This document shows, one piece after another, positions 3,195-29,498 of a stretch of DNA of 35,107 nt; within the stretch, counting starts at the first letter, position 1; every line of letters starts with the position of its first letter. The stretch covers positions 1 through 35,107 of the forward strand of contig CANFXY010000013.1 in NCBI GenBank assembly GCA_947451105.1, read 5' to 3'. The DNA is from Bacteroidota bacterium (lineage in GTDB: Bacteria > Bacteroidota > Bacteroidia > NS11-12g > UBA955). The notes beneath the pieces are model-generated. The model saw only the letters and a program-made list of their open reading frames with translations. It was not told where the DNA came from and made no database searches. The position numbers and the translations under genes were made by a program.

Positions 3195-3202
3195 TATATT
3201 TG
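3195..3202 (+). promoter_or_regulatory. Bacteroidetes -7 element for the IgGFc-like secreted protein gene
   Basis: TATATTTG matches TAnnTTTG exactly. Transcription would begin around 3207-3210, only a few bases before the ATG at 3212, so the mRNA may be nearly leaderless. The element overlaps the alternative ATG at 3200, which argues against that upstream start. Confidence 0.5.
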
Positions 3203-3211
3203 CACAAATAC

Positions 3212-5353
3212 ATGCGCTTTTTGCCATCAATTTCCCTCCTATTCTCAACCTTTTTAATTTTTTTAAGCACAAATAGAACAGAAGCTCAAAACCAAAATAA
3301 CAATTACGGAAAAGAGTTTCGTTTTACTTTCTTAGAAAATTATGGAAGTTTAGATAAGGTATCGTTTGTTGTTTCTTTAACGAAACTGCCAGATACAGTT
3401 CGTATTTATGCGGGTAACTCTGCATTTGAAACCATTGTTTACAAAAACTATGATACGGTTTTAAATTACACAAAATTTAGCTCCCCTAATGCTCTTGTAT
3501 TTGGTCCCAACAAGAGCATTTTAATCAATACCAAATCAAATACTCCATTTGCGCTCTATGCCATGAACAATGTGCAAAACAGCAGCGACATTTCGACCAT
3601 TACACCATCCGAAAAAATCCCTGGCAACCCTGACTATTTTATTAATACCTATAGAGGCGATGAGTCATTGGGCAAAGAAAACAACAGTTTGTTTTCTGTT
3701 GTGGCCATCGATGACAGTTGTTATATTAATGTCATGCCATCGGCTGATTCAAAATACAATTTGGTTAAAAATGTACCATTTGGAATTTGGCTTAGAAAAG
3801 GGCAAGTGTATTTCGAACAGGCCTTAGATAGTCAATCATTTTCTGGTACCCATGTATGGAACAGCAATGGATGCAAAAGATTTGCTGTATTTGAGGGCGC
3901 TAAATGTTCATTTGTAGACTATTCAACACCCAACTGCAGGGGTTGCGACCATTTATACAACCAAACCAGACCCTTGCAATACTTAGGAAAATCGTTTACC
4001 ACCCTACCTTATGAAACGATTGATGGAGGATACATCTATCAAATCGTTGCAACTGAAAACAACACCAACATTAAGATTGATGGTGTTTTTCGTGTTAACT
4101 TAAACAAAGCTGAGGTATATCAATACAACCAAAAAACGAATGTTGTTGTATGCATTGAGTCGGATAAATTGATTTCGGTGGTAGAATTGATGAAAAGTGG
4201 CGAATGCAATGGTCAGATCGATAAATTAGGCAACCCTAGTTTAATGAATGTGGTACCTAATAATCAAACCACTACAAATACTGGGTTTAGTTTCCCTTAT
4301 ACCACAAAAATATCTCAAAATCCTATTTCTCCAGCCGATTTTTATGTTGGAATATCTGCACCTATAGGAAGTTTATACAAAATTCGCATAAATGGCAACC
4401 CAATTGACACAAGTAAATTCAAAAATTCTTGTCAAAATTCAGTTGGTAGCATTAAACTTAATCCAGCCCTCAAATACAAAATCAGTTCAGAAATAGGATT
4501 TATCGCCTATATGTACGCATTTGGAATTGACGAAAGTTATGCAAGCGAAATTGGCTCAAGTTTCGAAAATTCAAAAACACAAATTTCACTTGATGCAAAT
4601 CAATACACGACTTGTGATTCTTTTAATGTTTTTAGGTTTAAAGCCAAATCGGATTCATTTGCTTTGTACAAATGGAGTTTTGGTGACGGAACTTTTCAAA
4701 CTGGAGACAGTGTTAGTAAAAAATATCCCAAAACAGGTGTTTATCAAGTTAAGCTAAACGCCACTTATCCGAATAATGTTGGCTGTTTGGGTGATACATT
4801 TGTTAAGACTGTTAAAGTTCAAAAACGTCCATACTTCAATTTAGGTAGAGATTCTATTTTGTGTTTCGGAGACTTTTTTCAAGTGTCACCTGTTGTTGAA
4901 CCTAAAACAAAATATTTGTGGAGCAATGGGAGCACATCGAGTCTGATTGTTGTAAATAATGCTCAAAAAGTTTGGCTGAAACTTACAGATACCAATCAAT
5001 GTTCATACACCGATACTATGAACCTTTCGTTTGCAAATTGTGACACAAACTCAATTATCATCCCCAATGTCTTCACGCCAAGTAATTTAAGTTCTCAATC
5101 TAATGACAATATCAATGATTTGTTTGAGACTAAATTCACGGGATTTGACGAATTAAAGGGTAAAATATACAACCGTTGGGGCAATTTGGTGTATTCTTTT
5201 AGCTTTCCGACTGATGCCTATTGGAATGGTGGTTTGAACAACGATGTTACAAATCCTTGTCCATCAGGCACCTATTACTATCTTTTTGAATTTACAAACT
5301 CAAAAACAAATTTAGTTAGATCATACAATGGCGTTGTCGAATTGATTCGATAA
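3212..5353 (+). CDS. Secreted IgGFc-binding-like / PKD protein with type B T9SS C-terminal domain
   Basis: A 713-residue exported protein is predicted from the ATG at 3212. That start gives a clean signal peptide (MRFLPSISLLFSTFLIFL, ending near TEAQ), whereas the ATG at 3200 lies inside the promoter. Residues about 30-450 resemble the IgGFc-binding-type region common in Bacteroidetes surface proteins, with phrases such as YQIVATENNTNIKIDG and a Cys-rich CRGCDHLY patch. A PKD domain follows (YKWSFGDGTFQTGDS). The last ~95 residues are a gliding-motility-associated C-terminal domain: IPNVFTPSN, IYNRWGNLVY, a WNGG motif and the ending VVELIR. That tail is known to direct export and surface attachment by the type IX system. 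The role is probably adhesion or matrix binding; IgG binding itself is not implied. Confidence 0.87.
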   Translation: MRFLPSISLLFSTFLIFLSTNRTEAQNQNNNYGKEFRFTFLENYGSLDKVSFVVSLTKLPDTVRIYAGNSAFETIVYKNYDTVLNYTKFSSPNALVFGPNKSILINTKSNTPFALYAMNNVQNSSDISTITPSEKIPGNPDYFINTYRGDESLGKENNSLFSVVAIDDSCYINVMPSADSKYNLVKNVPFGIWLRKGQVYFEQALDSQSFSGTHVWNSNGCKRFAVFEGAKCSFVDYSTPNCRGCDHLYNQTRPLQYLGKSFTTLPYETIDGGYIYQIVATENNTNIKIDGVFRVNLNKAEVYQYNQKTNVVVCIESDKLISVVELMKSGECNGQIDKLGNPSLMNVVPNNQTTTNTGFSFPYTTKISQNPISPADFYVGISAPIGSLYKIRINGNPIDTSKFKNSCQNSVGSIKLNPALKYKISSEIGFIAYMYAFGIDESYASEIGSSFENSKTQISLDANQYTTCDSFNVFRFKAKSDSFALYKWSFGDGTFQTGDSVSKKYPKTGVYQVKLNATYPNNVGCLGDTFVKTVKVQKRPYFNLGRDSILCFGDFFQVSPVVEPKTKYLWSNGSTSSLIVVNNAQKVWLKLTDTNQCSYTDTMNLSFANCDTNSIIIPNVFTPSNLSSQSNDNINDLFETKFTGFDELKGKIYNRWGNLVYSFSFPTDAYWNGGLNNDVTNPCPSGTYYYLFEFTNSKTNLVRSYNGVVELIR

Positions 5354-23528: not shown

Positions 23529-24542
23529 TTAAGGTTTGTATCCACTTTCTTGAAGAATTAATTCAGCGTTATTATTGTTCATTAAAGATTTCAAATCCAC
23601 TGAATTGTTTTCATTCATATACATCCTAACGGCCATCCAACCAACGTAGCGGCCAATCATAGCAGGTGCATCAGGAGGAATACCACTGGCAATGGTTTTA
23701 GGCCCTTCCTTTAATAGGCGTTCGAATCGTCTTTTATCGGTATCGAATAAATATTTCTCTTTTACGATGAAGGCCCAAATATTGTGCTCCTCTTTTTTAC
23801 ACCAATCAAATTCAGACTGTGTCAACCCTATTTTAATATGATCAGGGACATTTGGGGCCACTGCGTCAAGAAAATAAAGCAGTTTGCCATAATAGATCAT
23901 TTCATCGGTGAAGTTTTTTGCCTTATTTGTTTTCAAGAACAAATCGTTTGCGTGGGCTAACATGTGGTTAGTTACGATTGTTTGAGGGATTAAAATTTTC
24001 CGCCAATACATTTCAATGTTGGTGTACTCGTATGGTTTAAAATCTTGACCTAAGTGCATATCTAAAGCAATTCCAATGTAGTCTTGACCAACGGGGTTCA
24101 CATAAAAACTAAAGTTGCTGGTGTAGGTAACAATGGTTGGTATTTTCTCTTCTGGGAAAAAGTATTTAAAACGCTTGTAAGCCTCTGTTAATTCGTTTTC
24201 ATATGCTTTAAAGTCACCAAATTTTTCTTTAACAAATCCATAAACTTTTTTAGCGTTTACATCGGTTTTGAAGAGCATTAATTGTTGAAAGGCCTCTTGC
24301 TCATTGCCGGGAAAACCAATAATACCTTTGTTATAATCGGTCAAGAAAAAGGGGTATTTATTAGAAAAGCTTTGGTAATCGTTTAATTTGTTTTCGAATA
24401 GATCGTTTTCGAAATGTCTGATGTCTAATTTAACCTCAATATCATCTGTATTGATATCTAATTTATTAGAATGGCAAGATGTTAAGAATAACATGATAAA
24501 TACTGCTGATGCAGTAATTGAAAATTGAATTATTTTGTTCAT
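23529..24542 (-). CDS. gldB: Gliding motility lipoprotein GldB
   Basis: The 337-residue lipoprotein has the signal peptide MNKIIQFSITASAVFIMLFL with lipobox LTSC (Cys23). Typical GldB segments follow: IEVKLDIRHFENDLFE, FSFYVNPVGQDYIGIALDMH and YWRKILIPQTIVTNHMLAHA near residues 165-200. GldB is required for gliding in Flavobacterium johnsoniae, but its biochemical role is not settled; I note the conserved His/Asp-rich segments without claiming an active site. GldC, usually adjacent in flavobacteria, is not found here. The gene diverges from an outer-membrane barrel gene with only 27 bp between starts, and its stop abuts the trkH stop. Confidence 0.9.
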   Translation of the reverse strand: MNKIIQFSITASAVFIMLFLTSCHSNKLDINTDDIEVKLDIRHFENDLFENKLNDYQSFSNKYPFFLTDYNKGIIGFPGNEQEAFQQLMLFKTDVNAKKVYGFVKEKFGDFKAYENELTEAYKRFKYFFPEEKIPTIVTYTSNFSFYVNPVGQDYIGIALDMHLGQDFKPYEYTNIEMYWRKILIPQTIVTNHMLAHANDLFLKTNKAKNFTDEMIYYGKLLYFLDAVAPNVPDHIKIGLTQSEFDWCKKEEHNIWAFIVKEKYLFDTDKRRFERLLKEGPKTIASGIPPDAPAMIGRYVGWMAVRMYMNENNSVDLKSLMNNNNAELILQESGYKP

Positions 24543-24557
24543 TTTTGTGCAAATAAA
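24540..24557. promoter_or_regulatory. Possible overlapping divergent -7 elements between gldB and the barrel gene
   Basis: CATTTTTG (24540-24547, plus) and TTTATTTG (24557-24550, minus) each differ from TAnnTTTG at one position and face each other around TG. The short gap between the two starts leaves little other room. The minus-strand start would make gldB almost leaderless. Confidence 0.3.
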
Positions 24558-26960: not shown

Positions 26961-27407
26961 TTAAACTACCCGATGGTTTACCACGCACATGGTTGAATAG
27001 CCTCTAGCAATAAGAATTTCAGTTTTCTCGTGGTTTACACAATAAATATCAGATTCACAATAATGCAATAAATTGCCAGCTTTAATCACTCTACCTTTTG
27101 CAATAATTTTTGTTCCAATGCCTGGTCTTAAATAGGCTATTTTCAGATCAGAAGTAACGGTTCCCTCTCCTTCTCCGACAAGCGTAAAAGCTGAAAAACC
27201 CATAACAATATCCGCCAAAGTAGAAGTAACTCCACCATGAACAAAACCATTTTGTTGTAAGTGAATTTTTTGCAATATCAATTCACCTTCTAGGTAACCA
27301 GGCTCAATGGATGTAACCATAAAACCAAGGTGCTGCATAAAATGATTTGATTGCATTTTAATGAGCATATCTCTTTTAAAGTGAGGATTTTTACTGGTGT
27401 ATTCCAT
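26961..27407 (-). CDS. PaaI-type hotdog-fold thioesterase
   Basis: A 148-residue hotdog-fold protein with the PaaI/YbgC-like motif QNGFVHGGVTSTLADIVMGF (about residues 52-71), where the HGG turn and downstream Asp form the usual acyl-CoA thioesterase site. TSDLKIAYLRPG fits the following strand. It would hydrolyse an acyl-CoA thioester of unknown chain type. Proteins of this kind are poorly resolved by sequence alone. It is the second gene of a two-gene minus-strand unit, 9 nt after the TPR gene, and converges on nadE. Confidence 0.85.
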   Translation of the reverse strand: MEYTSKNPHFKRDMLIKMQSNHFMQHLGFMVTSIEPGYLEGELILQKIHLQQNGFVHGGVTSTLADIVMGFSAFTLVGEGEGTVTSDLKIAYLRPGIGTKIIAKGRVIKAGNLLHYCESDIYCVNHEKTEILIARGYSTMCVVNHRVV

Positions 27408-27416
27408 AATATATTT

Positions 27417-27776
27417 TTAAAATGTTAATTCTTCTAATGCGCTTTTAAGTTCTAATTCCGTTTTTTTATCTGCCAATTTAATTGCCAATTCGATACCCTC
27501 CTCATAAACAAGGATGGCCATATTTGAATTGCTTAATTCTTCATATACATGGGCTAGTTGATAGTACAATGGCAGATAATCAGGATGATTGCTGCGGATC
27601 CATTCTAATTGAACGGCGGAAGAGTTCCAATCGGATAAAGACATATATTCCATGGCCAAAGCATAGTTTAGAAAAATGTCATTGGGGTTTTCTGTTAGCA
27701 AATGTTTGATGGTCTCAATTCTGTCCATATATTGGATATTGTTAATTACTTTGCAAAACTCATTTTTTCTTAGCAT
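27417..27776 (-). CDS. Small tetratricopeptide-repeat protein
   Basis: This 119-residue, mostly helical protein has about two TPR-like units: NDIFLNYALAMEYMSLSDWN and YLPLYYQLAHVYEELSNSNM, followed by AILVYEEGIELA, with the alternating small/aromatic positions of the repeat. It is probably a cytosolic scaffold or binding protein of unknown partner. The ATG at 27776 is ~20 nt downstream of a perfect minus-strand -7 element. An alternative ATG at 27728 (MDRIETIK) is where the recognisable fold begins and may be the true start; the first 16 residues have no clear similarity. It precedes the thioesterase gene by 9 nt. Confidence 0.75.
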   Translation of the reverse strand: MLRKNEFCKVINNIQYMDRIETIKHLLTENPNDIFLNYALAMEYMSLSDWNSSAVQLEWIRSNHPDYLPLYYQLAHVYEELSNSNMAILVYEEGIELAIKLADKKTELELKSALEELTF

Positions 27777-27786
27777 TTTTTTAACT

Positions 27787-27802
27787 TAATTTTGCAAAAA
27801 TA
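27787..27802. promoter_or_regulatory. Face-to-face divergent -7 elements for the TPR gene and etfB
   Basis: The 16-bp sequence TAATTTTGCAAAAATA is two abutting -7 elements: TAATTTTG on the plus strand (27787-27794) for etfB and TATTTTTG on the minus strand (27802-27795) for the TPR gene. Both match TAnnTTTG exactly. The two start sites would lie within each other's element, so the promoters should be mutually exclusive. Confidence 0.55.
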
Positions 27803-27817
27803 TTTTTTTAATCTTTC

Positions 27818-28558
27818 ATGAAAATTTTAGTGTGCATGAGCGTGGTTCCAGATACCACAACAAAGATCACTTTTACTGAAAACAACACCCAATTTAATAC
27901 ACAAGGTGTTCAGTTTATCATCAACCCATACGATGAATTATCTTTAACAAAAGCTTTGGAGCTAACGGAGAAAAACGGAGGCAGTGTAACGGTTGCAACT
28001 GTAGGTTTAGCAGACGCAGATGCTGTTATACGCAAAGCTTTAGCAATTGGAGCAAACGATGCAATTAGAATAAATGCAGAGGCAAAAGATGGTCAATTTG
28101 TCGCTGAACAGATTGCTGCTATTGTTAAAGCCAATGGATATGACATGGTTTTAACTGGACGTGAAAGCATAGATTACAACGGTGGTCAAGTTTGCAGTTT
28201 ATTAGGTGCTATGTTGTCATGGCCATCTGTAAACGTATGCACACAAATGGATATACAAGACGGAAAAGCCATTTTTGAAAGAGACATCGACGGCGGAAGA
28301 CAGTCAATTAGTTCTTCTCTTCCTGTTGTAGCAAGTGCGCAAAAAGATTTATGTGAACCAAGAATTCCAAATATGAAAGGTATCATGGCTGCAAGAACAA
28401 AACCATTACAAGTTGTAGAAGCAATATCAGTTGAAAACAACAGCACCTATAGTTTGTTCGAAAGCCCTCAAGCGAAGCAAGCAGTTCGTTTAATCGATGC
28501 TGGTCAAGCTGGACAATTAATTGACATTTTAAGAAACGAAGCTAAAATAATCGCATAA
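27818..28558 (+). CDS. etfB: Electron transfer flavoprotein subunit beta
   Basis: The 246-residue beta subunit of ETF begins MKILVCMSVVPDTTTKITF and shows the family landmarks FIINPYDELSLTKALEL, ALAIGANDAIRI, VLTGRESIDYNGGQV and KDLCEPRIPNMKGIMAARTK. The heterodimer accepts electrons from acyl-CoA and related dehydrogenases on its FAD and passes them to ETF dehydrogenase; the beta chain binds AMP. etfA starts 1 nt after its stop, so the two are made together. Transcription probably starts at the divergent element at 27787. No acyl-CoA dehydrogenase or ETF oxidoreductase gene lies in the window. Confidence 0.95.
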   Translation: MKILVCMSVVPDTTTKITFTENNTQFNTQGVQFIINPYDELSLTKALELTEKNGGSVTVATVGLADADAVIRKALAIGANDAIRINAEAKDGQFVAEQIAAIVKANGYDMVLTGRESIDYNGGQVCSLLGAMLSWPSVNVCTQMDIQDGKAIFERDIDGGRQSISSSLPVVASAQKDLCEPRIPNMKGIMAARTKPLQVVEAISVENNSTYSLFESPQAKQAVRLIDAGQAGQLIDILRNEAKIIA

Positions 28559-28559
28559 T

Positions 28560-29498
28560 ATGACTGGAATATACGCAGAAAATTCAGAAGGAATCTTTAA
28601 AAAATCAGTATTAGAGGCAGCATCCTATGCTTCAAAAATTCAAAATGGTCCAGTTACCGCTATATGTGTTGGCAAGCCAAATGATGGAGAATCTGAAAAA
28701 CTAGCCAAATACGGCGTTAATAAATTAATTGTTATAGATGGTTTGAATGCTTTTGATGCTCAAGTGTATTCAGAGGCGGTTACCAAAGCCATCGCTCATG
28801 CCGGTATAAACACATTGGTAATTGCCAATACGTATGAAGCAAAATCAATTGCTCCAAGAATTGCGGTTGGAATGAATGCATCATTGGCAACCAATGTCAT
28901 TGCATACCCTGACATGAGCAATGGATTTACCGTTAAGCGTGGCGTATTTTCAGGAAAAGGTTTTGCATATGTAAAACTTGAAAAAACAAATAAAATTGTT
29001 GCTATTACACCCAACAGCACTGAATTGATTGAAAACAATCAAAGCATTGCAATTGAAAATATGGTTGCTGAACAAAGCAATTCTTCTACTCAAATTATAT
29101 CAACTTCAAAGGCTGCAGGAAAAATTCCTTTAACCGAGGCTGAGGTAGTTGTTTCTGCTGGTAGAGGTATGAAAGGACCAGAAAACTGGGGAATGGTTGA
29201 AGAATTAGCTGATTTATTGGGTGCTGCTACAGCATGCTCTAAGCCGGTGAGCGATATGGGTTGGAGACCACACGGCGAACACGTTGGTCAAACTGGTATA
29301 ACGATTAAACCAAATTTGTACATTGCCATAGGAATTTCTGGCGCTATTCAGCATCTTGCTGGAGTGAGCAGCAGTAAAGTCATTGTTGCAATTAACAAAG
29401 ATCCTGAGGCTCCATTCTTTAAAGCAGCTGACTACGGAATCGTAGGTGATGCTTTTGAGGTATTGCCACAATTGATACAAGCCGCAAAGAACCACTAG
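28560..29498 (+). CDS. etfA: Electron transfer flavoprotein subunit alpha
   Basis: The 312-residue alpha subunit of ETF binds the FAD. The C-terminal FAD domain is clear: VVVSAGRGMKGPENWGMVEE, then GWRPHGEHVGQTGITIKPNL, IGISGAIQHLAGVSSSKVIV and NKDPEAPFFKAADYGIVGDA. The N-terminal domain (1-~185) has the VIANTYEAKSIAPRIAVGM type of segment shared with the beta fold. It pairs with the beta subunit encoded directly upstream. A bifunctional-nuclease-family gene follows 17 nt downstream. Confidence 0.95.
   Translation: MTGIYAENSEGIFKKSVLEAASYASKIQNGPVTAICVGKPNDGESEKLAKYGVNKLIVIDGLNAFDAQVYSEAVTKAIAHAGINTLVIANTYEAKSIAPRIAVGMNASLATNVIAYPDMSNGFTVKRGVFSGKGFAYVKLEKTNKIVAITPNSTELIENNQSIAIENMVAEQSNSSTQIISTSKAAGKIPLTEAEVVVSAGRGMKGPENWGMVEELADLLGAATACSKPVSDMGWRPHGEHVGQTGITIKPNLYIAIGISGAIQHLAGVSSSKVIVAINKDPEAPFFKAADYGIVGDAFEVLPQLIQAAKNH

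Follow-up and report, generated by a model that had tools for sequence, protein, structure and literature searches.

Face-to-face -7 elements as a candidate compact bidirectional promoter in a genus of Bacteroidota

Bidirectional promoters and the -7 element of Bacteroidota

Warman, in 2021, reportedly traced bidirectional promoters to the symmetry of the -10 element in E. coli, Salmonella and other prokaryotes. As described in the parts consulted of two later papers (Warman 2026, PMC12825309; Middlemiss 2023, PMC10268837), one short symmetric core is read both ways in the bidirectional promoters of E. coli and Salmonella, with divergent starts 7-25 bp apart (18 is the commonest distance, and 10 and 23 are also common in E. 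coli). The same portions of these papers describe, for the E. coli type, mutually exclusive polymerase binding and a chromosomal bias to divergent gene pairs. In Bacteroidota, the sigma-A/ABfr promoter is composed of a -33 TTTG and a -7 TAnnTTTG, as given in the sections available of PMC9723704, PMC7366714 and PMC6847099. Within those sections, the TAnnTTTG box of Flavobacterium psychrophilum lies at -12 to -5 with a median leader of 24 nt (PMC9723704), and the nn of the -7 element contains no G in F. johnsoniae (PMC6847099). The word "bidirectional" is absent from the main text of PMC9723704 and PMC7366714, and the sections available of all three papers do not describe a mirrored arrangement of the -7 element. 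Titles and abstract beginnings of papers that link divergent or bidirectional promoters to the -7 motif or to Bacteroidetes, Bacteroides and Flavobacterium did not reveal this arrangement either, in a search that covered a minority of the subscription journals.

We analyzed a stretch of 35,107 nucleotides from a Bacteroidota bacterium (hereafter the window), in which two TAnnTTTG elements face each other between a TPR-repeat gene and etfB, and we followed the same pattern in the rest of its genome and in related genomes. It seems to us rather probable, judging from motif counts, gene context and conservation, that TAnnTTTG-(0-1)-CAAAnnTA acts as a compact bidirectional housekeeping (sigma-A/ABfr) promoter in the genus, the copy between the TPR gene and etfB being a weak member of the class. 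In this arrangement the 3' ends of the two -7 elements meet, and a single melted bubble of about 13 bp could thus be read either way, with predicted starts 9-10 nt apart and running outward. Both halves would initiate transcription, and the bubble would be shared by the two directions, the polymerases excluding each other.

Compared with the bidirectional promoters of E. coli and Salmonella, as these appear in the consulted parts of the papers, the mirrors of the genus, known from sequence alone, have a similarly symmetric core and divergent bias, and their predicted start distance falls inside the 7-25 bp range. They differ in that the core is the Bacteroidota TAnnTTTG and in that two complete elements abut, instead of one -10 element being shared. 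The mirrors also resemble the standard sigma-A/ABfr promoter, as far as the available sections describe it, by having an identical -7 element placed as expected relative to the start codon, but unlike it they carry two elements in mirrored orientation. The symmetry on both strands that defines the core of a bidirectional promoter is found here as sequence symmetry, in the form of an exact -7 mirror and of the enrichment of its class.

The mirror between the TPR gene and etfB

A sequence-only reading of this DNA had proposed that two exact TAnnTTTG elements stand face to face between the TPR gene and etfB, and this was confirmed at 27787-27802. On the plus strand, TAATTTTG (27787-27794), the -7 element of etfB, is directly followed by CAAAAATA, which on the minus strand is TATTTTTG (27795-27802, read 27802-27795), a mirrored leftward -7-like element. 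Each half matches exactly, 0 bases lie between them, and this 16-bp mirror is the sole exact zero-spacing match in the 35-kb window. As dinucleotide shuffles yield 1.1-2.6 sites per Mb at 0-1 base between halves, the expectation is well under 0.1 per window of this size. The flanking genes are also as claimed, according to Pfam: etfB (27818-28558, plus strand; ETF, E=2.9e-34) and etfA (28560-29498, plus strand; ETF_alpha, E=2e-33), encoding the beta and alpha electron transfer flavoproteins, lie to the right, while a TPR-like gene and a thioesterase-superfamily gene lie to the left on the minus strand. The TPR-repeat protein (27417-27776, minus strand) has 119 aa if it starts at 27776 or 103 aa if it starts at Met17 (27728), and its TPR_8 score of 25.1 bits is slightly under the cut-off of 25.7. 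Gene calls and start codons come from our own simple caller. A structured RNA at this junction was rejected, as Rfam gave no match at the gathering threshold in 27300-28000.

The etfB half ends 23 nt ahead of the ATG, a distance suited to a -7 element. By the position of the box at -12 to -5 given for F. psychrophilum in the available part of PMC9723704, the etfB start site is predicted at about 27799, with a leader of about 19 nt, and the leftward start site of TATTTTTG at about 27790.

We aligned the window with the 13 closest named etfB loci (74-98% EtfB identity, not all proven to belong to the same genus). Results showed that the etfB half is kept in 14/14 sequences, that is in the window and all 13 relatives, and the rightward half of the mirror would be the conserved etfB promoter. 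The leftward half is exact in 3/14 only (the window and its two closest relatives, L042 and L043), even though all 13 relatives retain a minus-strand gene upstream of etfB. A separate leftward element, GAGTTTTG (27754-27761, minus strand, read 27761-27754), lies 41 bp from the leftward half of the mirror and is kept in 13 of the 14 sequences, being missing in L052. It is a candidate conserved TPR -7 element with one mismatch to TAnnTTTG, at the first base, and by the -5 rule its start is predicted at about 27749, which would give a 21-nt leader to Met17 at 27728. With the caveat of this mismatch, GAGTTTTG is probably the main TPR promoter. The leftward element of the nine loci L056-L064 is exact in all but L058 and L063 (7/9); 16-17 bases separate it from the etfB element, and its nn varies.

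The TPR frame is closed a few codons above the equivalent of Met17 in 11/13 relatives, and Met17 is therefore the TPR start in those 11; in the window as well, the start may be at 27728 instead of 27776. Only the window, L042 and L043 have a frame that stays open to 27776, and these are the very three sequences in which the leftward half is exact. This coincidence would be expected from a joint origin of the mirror and a longer TPR start, and it counts against reading the copy as a weak member of its class; but as the three sequences are close relatives, it represents at most one event.

These data bear on whether the site is a full two-way promoter for both TPR and etfB, which we consider doubtful. 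Both of its halves are exact, such mirrors are enriched at divergent junctions of its own genome, and in the three mirror-bearing sequences the TPR frame reaches up to 27776, for a predicted leader of 14 nt from the leftward start. However, the relatives retain the upstream minus-strand gene mostly without an exact leftward half, nearly all of the sequences possess the separate leftward element with its predicted 21-nt leader to Met17, and the three mirror sequences amount to a single event at most. The pattern is better described by a weak member of the mirror class that may serve mainly one gene. Its leftward half may be a lineage-limited match from which some leftward initiation is possible, and the mirror was probably superimposed, in a limited lineage, on two ordinary divergent promoters. 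Thus, the proposal that symmetric -7 elements act as divergent promoters is supported for the class in the genus, by counts, context and conservation, and is weak at this particular junction, where the leftward half is exact in 3/14 sequences and a separate leftward element occurs in 13/14.

Two other features of etfB upstream regions were observed. A conserved block extends over 27749-27797 between TPR and etfB, with a second, imperfect TTTGCAAA mirror (TTACTTTGCAAAACTC, 27746-27761, 2 mismatches). In Chitinophagaceae (L068, L072, L076, L078 and others), an inverted repeat TAGTTGCATAAACAACTA follows the -7 element and looks like an operator or a leader hairpin.

The looser TTTG-(N)-CAAA versions that had been pointed out at two other junctions of the window are present with mismatches, but their number does not exceed chance. 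The first (3195-3212) has an exact first half, a second half CAAATACA with 1 mismatch and 2 bases between them, and is located at the start of a gene called from 3212 (plus strand); the second (24540-24557), between gldB and an OMP gene, has one mismatch per half and 2 bases between. With up to 2 mismatches allowed, the window contains 11 matches at two-base spacing vs 8.6 expected and 12 at zero spacing vs 9.6 expected, both at chance level.

Mirror counts, spacing and gene context

To read TAnnTTTG as a sign of promoters, we used the window and 20 further stretches, about 0.43 Mb in total, with 175 first-gene starts. The background stretches were chosen by contig number, and since in C2, C4 and C7 they skirt site-bearing stretches, the sample served for rates and gaps and not for site counts. 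Within 150 nt upstream of the first-gene starts we found 99 sense motifs, 67 of which lie at most 30 nt from the start, vs 49 antisense motifs with 8 that close; the -7 element therefore appears to be in use in this genome. In favor of a promoter, an upstream TTTG with a spacer of 18-23 accompanies 15/71 mirror halves vs 17/241 intragenic motifs (P=0.0014) and 10/89 single promoters, whereas the shorter TTG does not distinguish mirror halves from intragenic motifs (16/71 vs 37/241, P=0.21). The -33 signal is weak in all sets, and we rejected it as proof of a promoter. A G in nn occurs in 16/71 mirror halves, compared to 62/241 intragenic motifs and 14/89 single promoters; the absence of G is thus not above background among the mirror halves, and as a rule that does not discriminate it was equally discarded. 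A T just outside the TA is found in 47/71 mirror halves vs 33/89 single promoters. We also asked if the -7 element is merely often trailed by CAAAnnTA. A half in a zero-spacing mirror is trailed by C, and a C after the motif is common (20/50 tandem and 23/49 divergent motifs), but the complete CAAAnnTA follows 0/50 tandem and 2/49 divergent motifs, and this explanation was rejected. The mirror at 27787-27802 is the sole such site in that sample; the 2/49 are therefore this one site seen from both sides.

The own genome contains 19 places with 0-3 bases between the halves vs 4 for reversed-pattern controls (spacings of 0, 1, 2 and 3 bases occur 8, 8, 1 and 2 times, respectively; two of the 19 are one site on overlapping contig ends), while at 4-12 bases the numbers are 19 vs 16, obtained by subtraction. 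In 17 genomes of the same genus, we counted 152 places vs 44 controls at 0-1 base and, again by subtraction, 695 vs 541 at 2-20 bases, an excess of the 0-1 form with a Fisher P of 8e-9. No preference for 0-1 spacing was found in 14 genomes of the neighboring family (43 vs 32) or among eight further genera of its own family (11 vs 10). Summed over 36 same-class genomes outside the genus, places over controls are 157/110 at 0-1 bases and 850/580 at 2-11, and a preference for abutting spacing across the class was rejected. The abutting form is therefore raised in the genus, but not in the class as represented by these 36 genomes. Of 111 genomes from other classes, one (G147) stands out with 18 abutting mirrors vs 2 controls, the largest excess outside the genus in its list. 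The back-to-back form sharing the TA (CAAAnnTAnnTTTG), the nearest analogue of the E. coli promoters, was tried and rejected: it gave 319 vs 239 controls in the 17 genomes, or 1.33-fold, roughly the general excess seen in face-to-face pairs spaced 2-20 bases (1.28-fold).

The 15 distinct sites of the own genome are 10 divergent, 3 intragenic, 1 tandem and 1 at a contig edge. Of 136 places in the relatives, 109 distinct ones were examined; clusters of sites were built by single linkage, and orthologous sites are not independent. The 109 comprise 67 divergent, 25 intragenic, 12 tandem and 1 convergent site, with 4 at edges. About 3.7% of the sampled bases fall in divergent gaps, which contain 72/635 single motifs, so the mirrors have a chromosomal bias to divergent junctions (10/15 in the own genome and 67/109 in relatives, vs 72/635). 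Own sites with 4-12 bases between the halves are divergent in 6/19 cases, and the comparison of 10/15 with 6/19 is not significant alone (P=0.08). After dinucleotide shuffling, divergent DNA contains about 2.6 sites per Mb. Nine genomes of the genus share an intragenic mirror that lies toward the 3' end of a conserved gene, called in most of them at about 137 aa (L143 1501-1516; also L175, L177, L184, L193, L216, L224, L245 and L252).

Could AT-rich, compact divergent gaps juxtapose two -7 elements by chance, the arrangement itself being unselected? The abutting spacing is not preferred outside the genus, and the leftward half of the TPR/etfB copy may well be a chance match, both in keeping with this explanation. 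As an account of the mirrors in the genus, however, it is extremely improbable. When promoters are placed independently at sampled distances in divergent gaps, 0.49 own sites are expected at 0-1 bases and 10 are seen, compared to 2.6 expected and 7 seen at 2-12 bases; own divergent junctions thus favor 0-1 over 2-12 spacing (10 vs 7, P=5e-5). The long conservation of both halves at other junctions also stands against chance.

Conservation of both halves at orthologous junctions

Orthologues were fetched by protein and not by motif, with upstream DNA taken from the best 30 loci per protein search; names such as aspartokinase or YggS are our reading of Pfam families. At the FBPase/aspartokinase junction, both halves at zero spacing are present in 15/15 readable loci of the genus, a sixteenth being truncated at the end of its contig; the nn bases are variable (TT, CT, CC or CA on one side and AA, AG or GG on the other). 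Outside the genus, face-to-face pairs are found at this junction in 6/9 divergent loci, at 2, 3, 3, 6, 6 and 7 bases, and in 1/4 tandem loci. The YggS junction has both halves in 13/13 genus loci, and the 0-1 form in 0/17 loci outside the genus. In 11/11 pattern-found YggS sites, only the 16-bp mirror separates CAT from ATG and both frames continue without a stop for 110 codons or as far as the contig reaches; our simple caller set both starts beside the mirror in just one of the 11 (L247). Both halves, with one base between, are kept in 15/17 genus loci at the TilS/OstA-like junction, where the TilS half survives in each of the two exceptions, one of which has lost the divergent orientation of its genes. 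The FolP/DUF1599 junction has both halves in 12/15 genus loci; of the three exceptions, two combine a preserved leftward half with a FolP half that has one mismatch, and the third lacks both halves. Taken with the enrichment and the divergent context, this conservation of both halves makes the mirror class real in the genus.

A palindrome held at fixed distance could also be the operator of a dimeric transcription factor that overlaps the promoters by chance. The palindromic form itself, the spacing fixed at 0 or 1 base in the pattern-found orthologous groups and the extra T outside the TA would all suit such an operator. Against it, nn shows no symmetry between the halves (13/42 matches vs 13.8 expected, in 21 cluster representatives), and the spacing at the FBPase/aspartokinase junction is 0 in the genus and 2, 3, 6 or 7 bases in other genera, and hence not fixed. 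Both the nn asymmetry and the change of spacing between families argue against a dimer. Moreover, the element equals the sigma consensus and lies at promoter distance from the starts, and the ten neighbors scanned at six junctions (FBPase, amino-acid kinase, TilS, OstA-like, YggS-like, FolP, DUF1599, a class II tRNA synthetase and two oxidoreductases) belong to unrelated pathways and form no evident regulon. We therefore regard the operator as highly improbable, the compact bidirectional promoter being our preferred reading.

Implications of a two-way -7 promoter

Bidirectional promoters have been described for the TATAAT-type element. If the mirrors are indeed bidirectional promoters, they would be a conserved counterpart that uses the Bacteroidota -7 element in a geometry of its own and that has risen in a particular lineage, and promoter symmetry would have been reached independently of the motif of the sigma factor. 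In biological terms, we see an evenly balanced case for the idea that TAnnTTTG-(0-1)-CAAAnnTA has become established in the genus as a minimal two-way promoter whose elements abut without overlapping and in which one bubble-sized stretch serves two housekeeping genes, with the expression of unrelated genes perhaps coupled or balanced. As polymerase could proceed in one direction at a time, such coupling or balance may follow. The FBPase/aspartokinase, YggS, TilS and FolP junctions are ready cases for asking whether polymerase competition ties unrelated genes together.
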